From contig NZ_LT629748.1 of the NCBI RefSeq assembly GCF_900105005.1, forward strand, positions 806,001 to 870,000: a stretch of 64,000 nucleotides of DNA. The letters are read 5' to 3'. Made by a program: the position numbers and the translations under genes. The stretch's first letter is position 1. Every line of letters starts with the position of its first letter. The DNA is from Halopseudomonas litoralis. GTDB lineage: Bacteria; Pseudomonadota; Gammaproteobacteria; Pseudomonadales; Pseudomonadaceae. Below the pieces are notes generated by a model. The model ran no database searches, was not told where the DNA came from, and saw only the letters and a program-made list of their open reading frames with translations. Positions 34,632 to 55,924 of this stretch are shown here, one piece after another.

Positions 34632-35240
34632 TCAGGGCAGTACGTATAGAAGCGGGAACAGCACCAGCCACACCAGGTCGACCATGTGCCAGTAGCTGGC
34701 GGCGGATTCGCCGGCCATACGTGCTTTCTCCGGGTTGGCATACTGGCCGCTGCGGTAGCGCTGGGCGACGACCAGCAGTATGGCCATGCCGATCAGTACG
34801 TGGGCCATATGGAAGAAGGTGGTGAAGAAATAGAAGAAGTAGAAGGTGCTGGTGCGCAGGTTGTAGCCATTACCAAACAGGATTGCATATTCGCTGATCT
34901 TGATGCCGACGTAACCCAGCCCGCACAGCGCGGCCAGTACAAATCCGCTAACCAGCGCTTGCTGGTTGCCTGCCGCAGCACGTCGCACGCCCCGGGCGGC
35001 AAAGTAGCTGCCGGTCAGCAGAATCAGGGTGTTGATCAGCCCCGCCTCGGGGTGCAGGGTGGCGATGCCGGCACTGAACATCTCTCCCCAGTGCCCCCGG
35101 GCAAAGACCATGCTGCCCAGCAGAAACAGGAAAGCCAGCAGCTCGGCCAGGATGAAACACCACATGGCCAGATCGCCTGGCAGGCGACGCTCCTGCGCGA
35201 TGTCGCCGGTGTCGGCAAGGGCGGATTCGGAGCTGTACAT
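34632..35240 (-). CDS. norE: NorE, cytochrome c oxidase subunit III-like protein
   Basis: A 202-residue COX3-family membrane protein with five helices: LPGDLAMWCFILAELLAFLF at the N-terminus, then NTLILLTGSYFAARGVRRA and FFTTFFHMAHVLIGMAILLV. NorE is an accessory protein of NO reductase. Its start overlaps the norD stop by one base (ATGA on the minus strand), so it is translationally coupled. Confidence 0.88.
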   Translation of the reverse strand: MYSSESALADTGDIAQERRLPGDLAMWCFILAELLAFLFLLGSMVFARGHWGEMFSAGIATLHPEAGLINTLILLTGSYFAARGVRRAAAGNQQALVSGFVLAALCGLGYVGIKISEYAILFGNGYNLRTSTFYFFYFFTTFFHMAHVLIGMAILLVVAQRYRSGQYANPEKARMAGESAASYWHMVDLVWLVLFPLLYVLP

Positions 35241-37084
35241 CAGGCAGTCCTCCCGGTCAGCAGGAGATAGAGTTTCGGCAACAGGCCCGGCAACTCGGAG
35301 GCCTGGCGGATCAGTTGATAGCGCTGTTGACCAAACAGGTAGGGCAGGTAGTCGGCGGCCTTCTGATCGATGGTCACGCAGAACGGCTGGATACCCGCCT
35401 GGCGTGCTTCCAGCAACGCATGGCGGGTATCTTCCATGCCGTAGCGGCCTTCATAGACGTCCAGATCGTTGGGCTTGCCGTCGGTCAGCAGCAACAACAG
35501 GCGTTGCTCCGCCGGTTTGTCCCTGAGGATGTCGGTGGCCTGGCGAATGGCTGCGCCCATGCGCGTGTAGTAGCCGGGCTTGAGCCCTTTGATGCGCCCG
35601 TGAATGGTTTCCCCCCAAGGTTCGGCAAAGTTCTTGATCAGGTTGAAGCGCACATGATCGCGGCGTCTGGAAGAAAAGCCGTACATGGCAAAATCGTCCT
35701 GGCCGGCGTCCAGTGCCTCGCCGAGCAGATGCAGACTGTCGCGAATAACATCGATGACCTGATGGGTATTGTCCGCCCAGGCTTCGGTGGACAGCGACAG
35801 ATCAGCCAGCACCAGGCAGGACAGATCGCGGTGACGCGCGGTTTCGCGGCGCCACAGTGCGGGTTGCGAGGTGGCCTGACCGCGACGCATATCTGCTGCG
35901 TGGTGCAGGCAGGCATCTAGGTCGAGCAGGGTGCCGCTGGCCTGGCGCTTTTCCCAGATGCGTTGTGGCTGCAGGCCCTGGAAACGCTGCCGAAGATTCC
36001 TCGCCAGCGCTTGCAGGCGATCCGGCAGAGGCTCTGGCTCCGAGTCGCGTGGCAGCATGGGAATGACGCGACAATGATTTTCCTTGAGCTGCTGTTTTTT
36101 CCAGTCCCACTCGGGATACAGGCAGCCATCATTCAGCTGGATGTCGTCCTCCGAGGCAGATGGTAGATCCATGTCCAGCTTGATGCGTGAAGCGCTGGTG
36201 CTGGGGCTGCGCGACAGGCTCAGGAAATCGAGATCCTCGGCAATCTGCTCGGTATCTTCATCGTCGTCATCATCCTGGCAGCGGTCGACCGGTACAAACT
36301 CGGACCAGGAGAACAGGCTTTCCAGGCGGAAGATCATCATGCCATTGCGTTGCTGGTTGTCATCCACGTAGCGCGCCTGTTTGCGCTGTTTGCTCTGGCG
36401 AGTCTTGCCGTTACCACTGGACTCCCCATCCTTGCCATCGTCGTTTGCCGCGGTCGGGCTCAGGCGAGGTTCTTCCGGCAGCGGGTACAGCCATAGCGGG
36501 ACGGGCCAGGGCTCCCCGGGCGCGGCGGGGAAGGCAGTGCGGCTGCCGGGTGTAAGCAGTGCAACCTGCAGCGCGGCTTCCCGCTCGGCCTGAGCGGCGG
36601 GCAGACGGGTGCGCGCGCGACGAATCTCCACCAGACACTGCGCGAGTGAGTGATACAGGGCGGTCAGACCGGGATAGGCGGCCAGCGTCTTCAGCACCAA
36701 TTGCTGATTCGCCTGCAACCAATCGCCGGAAACACGGGATTCGGCCTGACTGGCCATGGCGGTCAGCCACAGATAGAGATCACGGTTCAATGTCTTGTCG
36801 GGGAAGACCGCAAGACTTTCCGGTACCCGCAGTGCGTCGGCTTCGCGCCAGGCCAGAGCGTGCCGGCGGCCCGTGCCTGCCAGCTTGTGAGCCAGCGGTC
36901 GCCAGGTGTTGATGCTGCGTTCGGTGCTGGCCTTGATGGTCAGCCCGGGATCGCCACTGAGAGCGCGGAAGACCATGGCCAGGCGCGGGCCTTCGTCCTC
37001 GAGGCGCACTTGCGCTTCGGGAAATCCGTTGCCGGCCAACCGGGTAATCAGCTTGTGCCAGCGGATGCCTACGGCTTCTTCCAT
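35240..37084 (-). CDS. norD: NorD, von Willebrand A protein for NO reductase activation
   Basis: About 614 residues from MEEAVGIRWHKL. The C-terminal von Willebrand factor A domain has the MIDAS motif DLSLS starting at Asp428 (VLADLSLSTEAW) and LLLLTDGKPNDLDVY. NorD works with the MoxR-type AAA+ protein NirQ/NorQ to mature NorCB, probably by inserting the non-heme iron. An acidic stretch (DRCQDDDDDEDTEQ) lies mid-protein. It is separated from norB by 135 bp with no clear terminator. Confidence 0.9.
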   Translation of the reverse strand: MEEAVGIRWHKLITRLAGNGFPEAQVRLEDEGPRLAMVFRALSGDPGLTIKASTERSINTWRPLAHKLAGTGRRHALAWREADALRVPESLAVFPDKTLNRDLYLWLTAMASQAESRVSGDWLQANQQLVLKTLAAYPGLTALYHSLAQCLVEIRRARTRLPAAQAEREAALQVALLTPGSRTAFPAAPGEPWPVPLWLYPLPEEPRLSPTAANDDGKDGESSGNGKTRQSKQRKQARYVDDNQQRNGMMIFRLESLFSWSEFVPVDRCQDDDDDEDTEQIAEDLDFLSLSRSPSTSASRIKLDMDLPSASEDDIQLNDGCLYPEWDWKKQQLKENHCRVIPMLPRDSEPEPLPDRLQALARNLRQRFQGLQPQRIWEKRQASGTLLDLDACLHHAADMRRGQATSQPALWRRETARHRDLSCLVLADLSLSTEAWADNTHQVIDVIRDSLHLLGEALDAGQDDFAMYGFSSRRRDHVRFNLIKNFAEPWGETIHGRIKGLKPGYYTRMGAAIRQATDILRDKPAEQRLLLLLTDGKPNDLDVYEGRYGMEDTRHALLEARQAGIQPFCVTIDQKAADYLPYLFGQQRYQLIRQASELPGLLPKLYLLLTGRTA

Positions 37085-37219
37085 TGCGTTTCTCCCAGTG
37101 ATCGTGGGTTGATTGCGGCCTGGGCCGACATCAGGAATTAGGGCGCTGCCGAACATGAGGTTGCGCAGCAGCGCGGTACTGCAGCCGGTATCAAGCGCAT
37201 GCCCGATACCGGAGTGGGG

Positions 37220-39110
<1,891 letters not shown>

Positions 39111-39149: not shown

Positions 39150-39995
39150 TCAGGCGATTTTTCTGGTTGGTTGTTGTCCGGGTTCGGCAAAGTGCACTCT
39201 GACGATGTCCATGATCGCTGCCTGAGCGGTGGGTTCGTCGGTGAGCGGTTGTGCCATGCAGGCTTCGCAGGCCTGACGCGGGTCCATGCCTGCGGCAATC
39301 AGCCGACCGGTATGAATCAGCAAACGGGTCGAGGGGGCTTCCTCCAGATCATGCTGTCCGAGGTGGCGCAGGGCATTCCCCAGCGCGACCAGTTGGTCGG
39401 CATTGAGCGGGTCAAGGCCGGATTCGTGCTGCACAATGCGGCTCTCTGCCGCTGTTTCGGGGTAATCGAAAGCCATCGCTACAAAGCGCTGACGGGTACT
39501 GGGCTTGAGCCCTTTGAGCAGGTTTCGATAACCGGGGTTGTAAGACACCACCAGCATGAAGCCGGGCGCAGCCTGGAGTTCTTCCCCGGTTGCTTCCAAC
39601 GGCAGAATCCGCCGATCGTCGGCCAGCGGATGCAGTACCACTGTGATGTCCTTACGCGCTTCGATGACTTCATCCAGATAGCAGATGGCGCCTTCGCGCA
39701 CGGCGCGCGTCAGGGGGCCGTCCTGCCAGAAAGTGCCATTGGCGCCGATCAGATGGCGGCCGACCAGGTCGGCGGTGGTCAGGTCATCATGGCAAGCCAC
39801 GGTGTACAGCTTGCGGCCAAGGCGCTCGGCCATATGCTGAATAAAGCGAGTCTTGCCGCAGCCGGTCGGACCCTTGATGAGTACCGGCATACCGAAACGG
39901 TCAGCCTGCTCGAAGAGATCAACCTCTGCGCCGCTGGCGTGGTAGAACAGCCCGCCGGGCTGTCCGTGGAGAGGATTGGGTCGGGATGCATTCAT
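39150..39995 (-). CDS. nirQ: MoxR-type AAA+ ATPase NirQ/NorQ
   Basis: 281 residues with Walker A GPTGCGKT, Walker B AICYLDEV and sensor region VVSYNPGYRN, typical of NirQ/NorQ/CbbQ. These proteins, with the VWA partner NorD, activate NO reductase. It is the first gene of nirQ-norC-norB-norD-norE-norF. The sigma-54-like element at 40034-40049 predicts a start about 29 bases before the ATG. Confidence 0.94.
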   Translation of the reverse strand: MNASRPNPLHGQPGGLFYHASGAEVDLFEQADRFGMPVLIKGPTGCGKTRFIQHMAERLGRKLYTVACHDDLTTADLVGRHLIGANGTFWQDGPLTRAVREGAICYLDEVIEARKDITVVLHPLADDRRILPLEATGEELQAAPGFMLVVSYNPGYRNLLKGLKPSTRQRFVAMAFDYPETAAESRIVQHESGLDPLNADQLVALGNALRHLGQHDLEEAPSTRLLIHTGRLIAAGMDPRQACEACMAQPLTDEPTAQAAIMDIVRVHFAEPGQQPTRKIA

Positions 39996-40033: not shown

Positions 40034-40049
40034 ATCAAGGATCGTGCCA
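40034..40049 (-). promoter_or_regulatory. Sigma-54 promoter of nirQ-norCBDEF
   Basis: On the minus strand TGGCACGATCCTTGAT: the -24 part TGGCACG is perfect, while the -12 part is TTGAT instead of TTGCW. Spacing from GG to the -12 GA is the required 10 bases. Predicted start near 40024. Three NorR-type boxes lie upstream. Confidence 0.65.
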
Positions 40050-40090: not shown

Positions 40091-40147
40091 GGTTAAATAA
40101 ACCCAAGCTAGTAATGGTTTTTTAAACCTTTAATGGTTTATTTAACC
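40091..40147. promoter_or_regulatory. Three NorR enhancer boxes upstream of nirQ
   Basis: GGTTAAATAAACC (40091-40103), GGTTTTTTAAACC (40116-40128) and GGTTTATTTAACC (40135-40147) each fit GGT-N7-ACC, the NorR site defined in Ralstonia eutropha, where three copies are also used. Box starts are 25 and 19 bp apart. The nearest is 41 bp from the sigma-54 element. Confidence 0.8.
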
Positions 40148-40208
40148 ATTTTGCGAGGTGTGGTGGTATGTTGCACCCAGTTCGTGCGTCGGTTTGCCGC
40201 ATAGAACA

Positions 40209-40222
40209 TTGATGTTGGTCAA
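40209..40222 (+). promoter_or_regulatory. Perfect Anr/Dnr box of the TonB receptor-nirS unit
   Basis: TTGATGTTGGTCAA matches the consensus fully. CATGAT at 40245-40250 is at the class II -10 position, predicting a start near 40257, 25 bases before the receptor ATG at 40282. Confidence 0.8.
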
Positions 40223-40281
40223 GACTCTGCGCGCTTTCGCTCTCCATGATGCCGATCAAGAGTGCTGAAGGAGCGAGCGAT

Positions 40282-44123
<3,842 letters not shown>

Positions 44124-44580: not shown

Positions 44581-45321
44581 CTAGAGGCTGTCAGACGCAA
44601 TAATGCTCGCCTTGTGTTCGGTATGTTGCTGACCTCCGGCGAACTCGTCCAGAAGATTGCGAATGCTGGGAATGCTGATCTGTCGTGCGCGGCTGTCGAT
44701 CAATCCACGCTCACGCAGGTTGGCTATGGCGCGTGAGAAGGTCTCCGGCTTGATCGACAGGCGTGCGGCAATCAGGCTCTTGGGCAGTATCAGTTCAATT
44801 TCTGCGCTGTCCCCTGCGCGGTCGCGCACCTGACTGACCAGATACAGAGCCAGACGCTGGGTCGCGTTCTGCAGTGTCAGGTGTTCCAGTTCATCCAGCC
44901 GCTGATGTAAACGCACACTCATATGGCCCAGCAGGTGCAGACAGGTTTGCGGGTTCTGCTCGAGATGGCGCAGCATCAGGCGGTTGGAGAAGCCGATCAG
45001 TTTGACCGGTTCCAGCGCTTCGGCACATACCGGGAAGACCGACTTCTGCATGAACATGATGGCCTCGGCAAAGGTATTGCCGGCGGTGATGATCTCGACG
45101 ACCTTCTCCTTGCCATCGGCCGAGATGCGATACAGCTTGACCTTGCCGGACTGCACCAGGTAGAAGCGCTCGGCTGGATCGTCCTGACGCTGGATCAGCG
45201 CCTGAGTATCGTAATCGCGCACCAGGGCATCAGCCAGCAGCTCTTCCTGAGCTTGTGCCTTGAAATGAGAAAACAGAGGATGACGGACAATCATCTGCCG
45301 TTGTTCCTGAGTCAGAGCCAT
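44581..45321 (-). CDS. dnr: Dnr, Crp/Fnr-family NO-responsive regulator
   Basis: About 246 residues from MALTQEQRQM (GGGAAG precedes it). A cNMP-binding fold (FYLVQSGKVKLYRISADGKE; NTFAEAIMFMQ) and a winged helix with recognition segment LSIKPETFSRAIANLRE. The FAEAIMFM and ETFSR motifs match P. aeruginosa Dnr. There is no N-terminal four-Cys cluster, so this is not Anr. Dnr binds heme, senses NO and activates nir and nor genes. Divergent from hemN over a shared Anr/Dnr box. Confidence 0.88.
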   Translation of the reverse strand: MALTQEQRQMIVRHPLFSHFKAQAQEELLADALVRDYDTQALIQRQDDPAERFYLVQSGKVKLYRISADGKEKVVEIITAGNTFAEAIMFMQKSVFPVCAEALEPVKLIGFSNRLMLRHLEQNPQTCLHLLGHMSVRLHQRLDELEHLTLQNATQRLALYLVSQVRDRAGDSAEIELILPKSLIAARLSIKPETFSRAIANLRERGLIDSRARQISIPSIRNLLDEFAGGQQHTEHKASIIASDSL

Positions 45322-45419
45322 ATCTTCCCGCCTTTGATTGATTTGTTGCAGAGTAAGCATTTCCGGCTGCGCAGACCATACCCCGCGATGAATTCATGAG
45401 GCAGGCGATCCCGAGGTTC

Positions 45420-53549: not shown

Positions 53550-54227
53550 CTATAGCGCCTTCGCGGTTACCTGGGTAACGAACAGAATGTTGTTTTCCAG
53601 GTGCATATGATCCATCAGGTCCGCGCAGAACTCGTTCAGTCCGCGGTATAGAGCCTGCCAGGTATTGCAGGCGTGAGGCGGCGGGGTGACCTCGTTGGTC
53701 AGCGCGTACAGCTTGTCGAGCGCCTGGCTGTGCTGGTCATGCTCGAAGCGCATCACGCTGATCGGTCCGCGTGACAGGCTTTCTTCGCCCCGCATCAGCA
53801 TCGGGAACAGAATCTGTTCCTCCTTGGCCATATGGCTTTCCAGCTCCTGTTGCATGTCGGAGAGATGATCGGTCAGCCCGTTCGGGCAATCGGGATTATT
53901 GCCATGTACCTGTTCGACACGCCGGGCCAGTCTGATCAGCTCAGATAACTGTTCCCGATGACATTCGTGGTAGCGCGTCAGAATATGCTGGATCAACTGT
54001 TCGGCGGATGCGTGGTTCCAGTTCTGCTCGTCCTGATCGACGGCGCATAGCTGCTCCAGGGCGGCAACAGTCGCGGCAGGATCGATGCCTTTACGAAGGC
54101 AGGCCTCAGCCAGGGTGCGCTGGCCATTGCAGCAGAAGTCCAGACGCTGAGCGTGTAATACGCGGGTGGCACCGGGAAGTTCTCGGGCGATGGTGCCCAG
54201 CTGAGTGTCAAGGAAGTCGTAAGGCAT
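53550..54227 (-). CDS. ytfE: Iron-sulfur cluster repair diiron protein YtfE (Ric/DnrN)
   Basis: 225 residues. The N-terminal ScdA domain (DTQLGTIARELPGATRVLHA; LDFCCNG) is followed by a hemerythrin-like diiron domain with His/Glu ligands (RYHECHREQL, ESHMAKEEQILFP, FEHDQHSQAL, DHMHLENNILF). It repairs Fe-S clusters damaged by NO. A perfect -12 sigma-54 element and three NorR boxes lie upstream, shared with divergent norR. Confidence 0.93.
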   Translation of the reverse strand: MPYDFLDTQLGTIARELPGATRVLHAQRLDFCCNGQRTLAEACLRKGIDPAATVAALEQLCAVDQDEQNWNHASAEQLIQHILTRYHECHREQLSELIRLARRVEQVHGNNPDCPNGLTDHLSDMQQELESHMAKEEQILFPMLMRGEESLSRGPISVMRFEHDQHSQALDKLYALTNEVTPPPHACNTWQALYRGLNEFCADLMDHMHLENNILFVTQVTAKAL

Positions 54228-54284
54228 CAGATGTGCTCCGATAAGGTGGCGGTAACAGCTGTAATGTTTAGCTATCTATAAGCT

Positions 54285-54300
54285 AGCAATACACATGCCA
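54285..54300 (-). promoter_or_regulatory. Sigma-54 promoter of ytfE
   Basis: On the minus strand TGGCATGTGTATTGCT: -24 GG and -12 GC separated by the required 10 bases. The predicted start is near 54274, about 47 bases before the ytfE ATG. Confidence 0.85.
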
Positions 54301-54339
54301 CTTATAACTGATTGATATTTAACGTAATCAAGTATTATT

Positions 54340-54397
54340 GGTGCAATATACCTGGATGCGGTATGGTTCATAAAACCATGCAAGGGTGAATTGAACC
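54340..54397. promoter_or_regulatory. Three NorR enhancer boxes in the ytfE-norR interval
   Basis: GGTGCAATATACC (54340-54352), GGTTCATAAAACC (54365-54377) and GGTGAATTGAACC (54385-54397) all fit GGT-N7-ACC. Starts are 25 and 20 bp apart, the nearest 39 bp from the sigma-54 element. The third box abuts the norR ATG and overlaps its ribosome site, so NorR may repress itself. Confidence 0.87.
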
Positions 54398-55924
54398 ATG
54401 ATCGAGCGTTTCCTGCTGCCAGACCTGGTGGCTGAGTTACCCGCTGCCGTACGCTTGCAGCGTCTGGTCCAGGTGTTGCGAGAAAGCTTCGCTTGCGGCG
54501 CTGTTGTGCTGTTGCAACATGAAAACGACTCCCTGCGTCCGGTTGCCGCCGTTGGGCTGGTCCAGGATGCACTCGGCAGGCGTTTTGAAGTGGCCCGCCA
54601 GCCGCGCCTTGCCGCACTACTTTCCCGTCGCGAACCCACCTGGTTCGAATCCGACAGCCCCTTGCCTGATCCCTATGATGGCTTGATGGATGAAAGTCCC
54701 GGCGAGCCGCTGCCGGTACATGACTGCATGGGTATAAGCCTTTATGTGGAAGGTGAGCTGTGGGGCGTGCTGACACTCGACGCACTGGATGCCGGCACCT
54801 TTGACGAGGCGGCCCGGCAGAAGCTGCAGCACCTGTTGCCGCTGGTGGAGGCGTTGCTGCGCGTGACACGCCTGGAGCAGGAGAATCGTGCACTGCGTCT
54901 GGTTCGCGCCGATGATCATCGAGCCTTGCCGGGGCTGCAGCAGCATGGGATTGTCGGCCACAGCCCGGTCGTTACGCGTCTGCTCGACGAGCTGGCTGTA
55001 GTGGCAGATTCGGATCTGACAGTCTTGATCACCGGCGAGACAGGGGTGGGCAAGGAGTTGTTCGCCCATTGGCTGCACAGACACTCGCCGCGCGCCGACA
55101 AGCCGCTGGTTCAGGTCAACTGCGCGGCGCTGCCCGAATCCCTTGCTGAAAGTGAGCTGTTCGGGCACGTCAAAGGTGCGTTCTCCGGAGCCAGCACTGA
55201 TCGGGGAGGGCGTTTTGATGCGGCCCATGGCGGCACGCTGTTTCTGGATGAAGTGGGCGAATTGCCGCTGCATGTGCAGGCCAAGCTGTTACGGACCTTG
55301 CAGAATGGCGAAATCCAGCGCCTGGGCGCCGATCAGCCGCTGCGCGTGGATGTACGCATCATTGCTGCGACCAATCGCAACCTGGCGGATTCGGTAGCCA
55401 AGGGCGATTTCCGCGCCGACCTCTATCATCGTTTGTCTGTCTATCCGGTCCCGGTTCCGCCGCTGCGCGATCGTGGCAACGATGTATTGTTGCTGGCCGG
55501 ACACTTTCTCGAGCTGAACCGCGCGCGCCTGGGTGTGCGTAGCCTGAGACTGTCGCCGGATGCCGAGCAGGCGTTGTTGACCTATGACTGGCCGGGCAAC
55601 GTGCGCGAACTGGAACATGTGATCAGTCGGGCGGCGATCAAGGCGCTGGGTCGCAATGGCTCGCGTCAGGCAATGCTGTCACTGGATGCGGCGTTACTGG
55701 ACATCCCCATCAGCGGCGGCGCCGTGCAGACACCGACCGATCCCTTGATTGCACCCACTGAAGAAGACATTCAGCCTTTACGCATTGCTGTCGAATCCTG
55801 CCAGCGCGAGCAGATCCGTCAGGCCTTGATAGCCACCGATGATAACTGGAGCGCGGCTGCGCGCCTGTTGGAGCTGGATGCCAGCAACCTGCACAAGCTG
55901 GCACGGCGGCTGGGTTTGAAGTAA
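54398..55924 (+). CDS. norR: NorR, NO-responsive sigma-54 activator
   Basis: 508 residues: an N-terminal GAF domain that binds NO at a non-heme iron (about 20-160), an AAA+ domain with Walker A GETGVGKE and Walker [13 protein letters not shown], and a Fis-type C-terminal HTH ([28 protein letters not shown]). The sigma-54 contact loop reads GAFSGA at 260-265 instead of GAFTGA. It is divergent from ytfE and autoregulation is suggested by a NorR box at its start. Likely targets are ytfE and nirQ-norCBDEF. Confidence 0.94.

Follow-up and report, generated by a model that had tools for sequence, protein, structure and literature searches.

Layout of the ytfE-norR region

The window, by which we mean the whole 64,000-nucleotide stretch of Halopseudomonas litoralis DNA that was analysed, contains a divergent ytfE-norR pair whose intergenic region holds a sigma-54 element and three GGT-N7-ACC boxes (Table 1). 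The boxes are spaced 25 and 20 bp from start to start, and 39 bp separate box 1 from the sigma-54 element TGGCATGTGTATTGCT. A preliminary description of this DNA had proposed these features, and its box positions (54340, 54365 and 54385) proved exact to the base; the promoter element that it placed at 54285-54300 was recovered on the minus strand, with one mismatch to TGGCACG-N4-TTGCW. It had also described the third box as touching the start of norR, as is the case: the box ends at 54397 and the ATG begins at 54398. By eye, box 3 overlaps the likely Shine-Dalgarno sequence of norR, AGGGTGA, and a consensus scan for a sigma-70-type promoter of norR found none. The position of box 3 by itself makes autorepression of norR plausible, as Rodionov 2005 suggested for Vibrio norR2 in passages of that study (PMC1274295).

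Table 1. Annotated genes and predicted regulatory features of the two loci, in window coordinates.
Feature	Position	Strand	Basis
ytfE (dnrN/norA type), di-iron hemerythrin-like FeS repair protein, likely NorR target	53550..54227	-	NCBIfam NF008221, 303.6 bits (cut-off 254); Pfam ScdA_N and Hemerythrin
Sigma-54 -24/-12 element TGGCATGTGTATTGCT, predicted to drive ytfE	54285..54300	-	1 mismatch to TGGCACG-N4-TTGCW
Predicted NorR box 1, promoter-proximal, GGTGCAATATACC	54340..54352	.	GGT-N7-ACC pattern, conserved
Predicted NorR box 2, GGTTCATAAAACC	54365..54377	.	GGT-N7-ACC pattern, conserved
Predicted NorR box 3, GGTGAATTGAACC	54385..54397	.	GGT-N7-ACC pattern, abuts norR ATG
norR, NO-sensing sigma-54 enhancer-binding protein: GAF, AAA+ with GAFSGA, Fis-type end	54398..55924	+	
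norD-like gene	35240..37156	-	ORF and position; name inferred
norB, NO reductase large subunit	37220..38623	-	COX1 domain; name from gene context
norC, cytochrome c subunit	38664..39110	-	Cytochrom_C domain; name from position beside norB
nirQ/norQ AAA+ protein, first gene of likely nirQ-norC-norB-norD unit	39150..39995	-	CbbQ_C domain
Sigma-54 element TGGCACGATCCTTGAT before nirQ	40034..40049	-	Pattern scan; -12 dinucleotide GA, not GC
Predicted NorR box 1, nirQ enhancer	40091..40103	.	GGT-N7-ACC pattern
Predicted NorR box 2, nirQ enhancer	40116..40128	.	GGT-N7-ACC pattern
Predicted NorR box 3, nirQ enhancer	40135..40147	.	GGT-N7-ACC pattern
DNR/FNR-type box TTGATGTTGGTCAA, nirS side of nirQ intergenic region	40209..40222	.	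In 7/8 closest loci

Box triples exceed chance expectation

Strict GGT-N7-ACC boxes numbered 37 in the window against 11.3 expected, and because the motif is over-represented across the whole window, we did not use the enrichment of single boxes as support. The sigma-54 pattern, scanned in the window with two or fewer mismatches, was not enriched (24 found, 17.2 expected, with 11 of 100 shuffles as high). The signal is carried by the triples; a lone box or a lone sigma-54 match has little evidential weight. Two triples occurred in the window, versus none in 300 order-1 simulated windows, and the expected number per window is approximately 8e-6 if the box density of the simulations is assumed and 3e-4 if the observed one is, in line with the earlier claim that such a layout would be very improbable by chance. 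Allowing any outer base (GT-N7-AC) at spacings of 24-26 and 18-21 bp still returned only the same two triples.

Genome-wide, 26 pairs of strict boxes lie 4-30 bp apart, versus 15 for a reversed control pattern. Exactly three of these 26 pairs have a spacing of 24-26 bp, one per triple, and the genome holds three strict-box triples, a count made on strict boxes genome-wide, with degenerate boxes considered within the window. A 19-bp pair at 1874020 was set aside, being overlapped by a 126-aa open frame and having no strict third box at the right distance.

The third triple, which the preliminary description does not contain, precedes a gene for a 168-aa protein and has spacings of 25 and 18 bp, a 40-bp core gap and the sigma-54 element CGGCATGGAACTTGCT. 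The gene lies at L005:4231-4737 (G000:C1:1788230-1788736); its product has, by eye, a signal-like start and a His-rich segment, and gave no Pfam or NCBIfam match. Among 21 homologue loci, its own included, three strict boxes are present in L157, L160 and L161 and two in L158, with zero or one in the remainder. This protein is a possible new NO-response gene product. Three of the homologue loci (L158, L160 and L161) have a DNR-type box shortly downstream of their sigma-54 element.

The adjacent NorR and the conservation of its predicted boxes

The norR product scored 696 bits against NCBIfam NF003451 (cut-off 476) and matched the Pfam GAF, Sigma54_activat (AAA+) and AAA_lid domains; Pfam HTH_8 was not reported, but a Fis-type end can be read from the sequence. 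The genome also encodes rpoN (TIGR02395, 520 bits; cut-off 277). We compared the protein with ytfE-linked NorRs, a set of 36 that joins seven named relatives to 29 norR orthologues, the latter being the best loci apart from the hmp-linked L046. Seven GAF positions of the NO-sensing iron site, corresponding to E. coli R75, D96, Y98, D99, H111, C113 and D131, are identical in all 36. In a tree built by a quick method, all 36 fall on one side of a single branch (SH-aLRT 100), across which lie E. coli NorR, the hmp-linked proteins and other NorRs; within this tree, genomes of the source family group with Stutzerimonas. The NorR of C. necator was compared through its identity and boxes, outside the tree.

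Residue R81, described as key to GAF-AAA+ repression in E. coli NorR in the passages available of PMC2941729, is not kept in the 36 ytfE-linked NorRs, which have S (24), A (10) or Q (2). The corresponding position is residue 76 of norR (54623-54625), and the GAFSGA motif is encoded at 55175-55192. A comparison of 37 ytfE-linked NorRs found S, A or Q at the R81 place and GAFSGA in every one, and GAFTGA in 9/9 proteins with R; phylogeny may lie behind this association.

Three strict boxes are present at 25 of the 29 norR orthologues, 24 of them within 330 bp of the start, plus L042. One outer box base is changed in L026, and the middle box is degenerate in L032, L033 and L035, which represent three species of the genus. 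In 25/29 orthologues the position of the best-scoring sigma-54 element relative to norR is between -112 and -116; in L034 it is -246, versus the usual position of about -113. Box 3 abuts the assumed norR start, or is 1 bp off, in 26 of the 29. Neighbouring genes were assigned as ytfE by shared 4-mers (12 or more).

Comparison with known NorR systems

The closest match is to Cupriavidus necator (Ralstonia eutropha) H16, where norR and norA(ytfE)-norB on pHG1 form a divergent ytfE-norR region that likewise has three GGT-N7-ACC boxes. There the boxes are spaced 26 and 19 bp rather than 25 and 20 bp, the box core and the sigma-54 element are likewise 40 bp apart, and the third box lies at an ATG, as it does here; in C. 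necator this ATG is in frame and precedes the annotated start by three codons. The two NorR proteins are 64% identical. GGT-N7-ACC in the C. necator ytfE-norR region was reportedly footprinted by Busch et al. in 2004. The systems differ in that an NO reductase gene (annotated as the large subunit) follows ytfE in C. necator H16, whereas here the two-gene norCB reductase is encoded at another locus, which has an enhancer copy of its own.

The E. coli K-12 norR-norVW region is likewise divergent, with three GT-N7-AC sites (spaced 21 and 24 bp), a sigma-54 promoter and the same seven GAF residues. However, its outer base pairs are T-T, T-C and A-T in place of G-C, its core gap is 55 bp, its target is norVW, and its NorR is 50% identical and lies across the deep branch. 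The three enhancer sites of norVW are given as essential in passages of PMC2941729. In P. stutzeri, NorR sites and a sigma-54 promoter were similarly predicted before dnrN (ytfE) by Rodionov 2005; norR was not found there at that time (PMC1274295), whereas norR is adjacent here, and also in Stutzerimonas stutzeri BAL361 (L047). Expression of the hemerythrin-like norA of R. solanacearum was 15-fold lower without norR under denitrifying conditions, according to passages of PMC9045102.

We conclude, with a probability of roughly 0.9, that the region is a NorR-sigma54 NO switch of the Cupriavidus norR-norA(ytfE) type, that the same NorR serves the nirQ-norCBD and 168-aa gene enhancers, and that box 3 probably limits norR. 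Because the layout nearly equals that of C. necator H16, the module is of a known kind, and NorR and sigma-54 very likely activate ytfE directly. The preliminary description had arrived at the same NorR/sigma-54 module, and the NorR family score, the GAF residues, rpoN, the conserved layout and the near-identical C. necator region all support it. The DNA layout, its conservation, the identities of the genes and the conserved GAF residues are observed directly; NorR binding, the response to NO, the use of sigma-54, the operon structure and autorepression we infer. NorR would sit on the three tandem boxes; binding of NO to the GAF-domain iron would then lead its AAA+ ring to open the sigma-54 promoter 39 bp away, turning on ytfE. 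The same NorR would act at the like enhancers before the nirQ-norCBD operon and the 168-aa protein gene, and box 3, lying over the norR ribosome-binding site beside the start, would probably limit norR expression. We counted against this reading the GA at -12 of the nirQ promoter, the degenerate middle boxes, the changed outer base in L026, the L034 element at -246, the two paralogues that could cross-act and the negative scan for a sigma-70-type norR promoter.

A NorR-type enhancer before nirQ-norCBD

The second triple in the window lies before nirQ, with a box spacing of 25 and 19 bp and a 41-bp gap to the sigma-54 element. The preliminary description had placed the same set here with these distances; the boxes start at 40091, 40116 and 40135, and the element lies at 40034-40049. 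The sigma-54 element is found in 8/8 aligned close loci, being itself the anchor of that alignment. Half-sites of boxes 1 and 3 are invariant in the eight nirQ regions and their spacer letters vary; box 2 has lost one outer base in L133 and L134. The DNR-type box is present in seven of the eight closest loci (L127-L134), with none listed in L133.

We also observed a fourth strict box at 40165-40177, GGTATGTTGCACC (reverse GGTGCAACATACC), which is absent from the preliminary description; one of its letters varies across the eight closest nirQ regions, unlike the NorR boxes with their variable centres. A TGCGTCA-N4-TGACGCA-like repeat lies near this box and the DNR-type box in most of these regions. 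A TonB-dependent receptor gene (40246-42345) lies between the DNR-type box and nirS in the window, and a like receptor gene occupies that side of nirQ in L128, L129, L132, L134 and L136, whereas nirS comes directly next in L130 and L131.

The presence of a DNR-type box at 40209, in the same intergenic region as nirQ, would be expected if nirQ-norCBD were run mainly by the Crp/Fnr (DNR-like) regulator encoded nearby at 44581-45360, with the NorR boxes playing a minor part. The DNR identity of this regulator is putative. Control of this kind acts on nirQ in Pseudomonas, and P. aeruginosa nirQ needs DNR and NarXL according to passages of PMC12491237. In the window, however, the box falls to the nirS/TonB-receptor side of the NorR boxes, at a distance of 213 bp from nirQ. 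In L130 and L131, where nirS and nirQ are divergent, the DNR-type box lies before nirS itself and the NorR enhancer near nirQ, and L137-L143 keep the NorR-type enhancer with no DNR-type box listed within 400 bp of nirQ. We therefore consider control mainly by DNR unlikely.

Across the genus, nirQ is followed by norC and norB in 16/16 loci with readable upstream DNA. All 16 have a GT-N7-AC triple and a sigma-54 element before nirQ, and every box is strict in 10 of them. A ytfE-type NorR (72% identity or more) occurs in 20 of 37 genomes of the genus; nirQ is present in 17 of these 20 versus none of the 17 genomes without such a NorR, some of these genomes being incomplete. Other genera of the family differ: in 9/9 genomes the best nirQ copy has a TTGA-N6-TCAA (DNR-type) box 89-105 bp upstream in this same NO metabolism, none has a NorR-type triple before it, and a nirOP-like match adjoins nirQ in place of norC. 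All five of these loci that reach norC (L145, L146, L148, L214 and L215) have a further DNR-type box, positioned at the norC frame or just ahead of it. Excluded from this comparison were L135, cut at a contig end, and second nirQ copies in a norB-nirQ-norD arrangement (L150-L156 and L216), all of which lack both a triple and a DNR-type box at nirQ.

The nirQ tree places the genus together with two genomes from another family (100/98), apart from the DNR-type sequences. One of these two genomes, L217, has a NorR-type enhancer (19/24 bp); the second, L218, has no triple by the criteria used. A separate ancestry of the nirQ operon is favoured rather than shown, because the tree was midpoint-rooted and L217 and L218 were flagged as long rows of unsure placement. 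We had first considered that the promoter was exchanged in place at nirQ, but this tree made separate ancestry more likely. Two genomes of a further family (L231 and L232) combine a DNR-type box with the nirQ-norC-norB order, so this order is not exclusive to NorR control.

The ytfE-norR module is in itself expected; the less ordinary feature is a NorR-type enhancer before nirQ-norCB, at a place where a DNR-type box stands in other genera of the family. A literature search that covered few subscription papers found no report of NorR control of norCB; a Stutzerimonas gene table puts norR, norCB and norD together, with no statement on regulation in the passages concerned (PMC13248722).

Box class and the NorR-like paralogues

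The genome encodes two further full-length NorR-like proteins, 53% identical and with the seven GAF residues kept. One is the hmp-linked FhpR type, at 389492; the other lies at 2795274, with mixed boxes, some of them GGT-like. These proteins could cross-act on the boxes described above, and one or the other might even be their main occupant in place of the adjacent NorR. Box class argues otherwise. An outer G..C pair is found in 91/93 boxes at ytfE-linked loci versus 2/75 at hmp-linked loci, where other outer pairs include T..A (33/75) and A..T (10/75), and the hmp gene of this same genome has TGT-N7-ACA boxes. These counts take the best-scoring triple per locus, with outer G-C and T-A scored alike; triples were found in 31/36 ytfE-linked, 25/31 hmp-linked and 9/23 other loci, and the rest were excluded from the comparison. 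The recognition helix differs as well, reading D[APS]SNL[HR]K in ytfE-linked NorRs (DASNLHK, DPSNLHK and similar) versus mostly DR[AG]N[LF]xR in the hmp-linked type (DRANLHR, DRGNFSR and similar). Binding mainly by a paralogue thus appears quite improbable.

That the GGT..ACC class separates NorR from the hmp-linked paralogue is offered as a hypothesis and not as a proven code, because the counts are inflated by relatedness and a single deep branch carries the change. Discrimination of this kind, involving other positions, was proposed for Vibrio NorR1 and NorR2 in passages of Rodionov 2005 (PMC1274295).

The same source places dnrN/ytfE in many NsrR regulons, but control of ytfE by NsrR, as predicted in enterobacteria, with the NorR boxes serving norR only, is very improbable here, since the best NsrR-like site in the ytfE-norR intergenic region has 3/12 mismatches and the sigma-54 element is oriented towards ytfE, with the enhancer upstream of it.

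Returning to NorR as the regulator of both loci, we lean towards a broader proposal for the genus: that NorR and sigma-54, not DNR, own the norCB operon, which would have arrived with its enhancer as a unit of separate ancestry, and that the outer box base and a matching change in the recognition helix keep NorR and the hmp-linked paralogue apart. If the norCB operon is under NorR and not DNR, control would be split within one intergenic region, DNR acting on nirS, the NO producer, and NorR on nirQ-norCBD, the NO consumer. The genus would thereby put NO production (nirS) and removal (norCB) under different sensors, and a comparison of relatives whose operons are of the DNR type or the NorR type would make the timing of NO build-up during denitrification testable. 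The difference in the outer base would likewise provide a simple rule, itself testable, by which co-resident NorR paralogues are kept from cross-talk.

The paralogue at 2795274 (L012; G000:C1:2795274-2796779) is divergent from a gene whose Gly-zipper match is weak and falls below the cut-off. Its region has mixed GGT/TGT boxes and the element TGGCACGCTTTGTGAT, and in the NorR tree it belongs to its own clade of nine within the genus.
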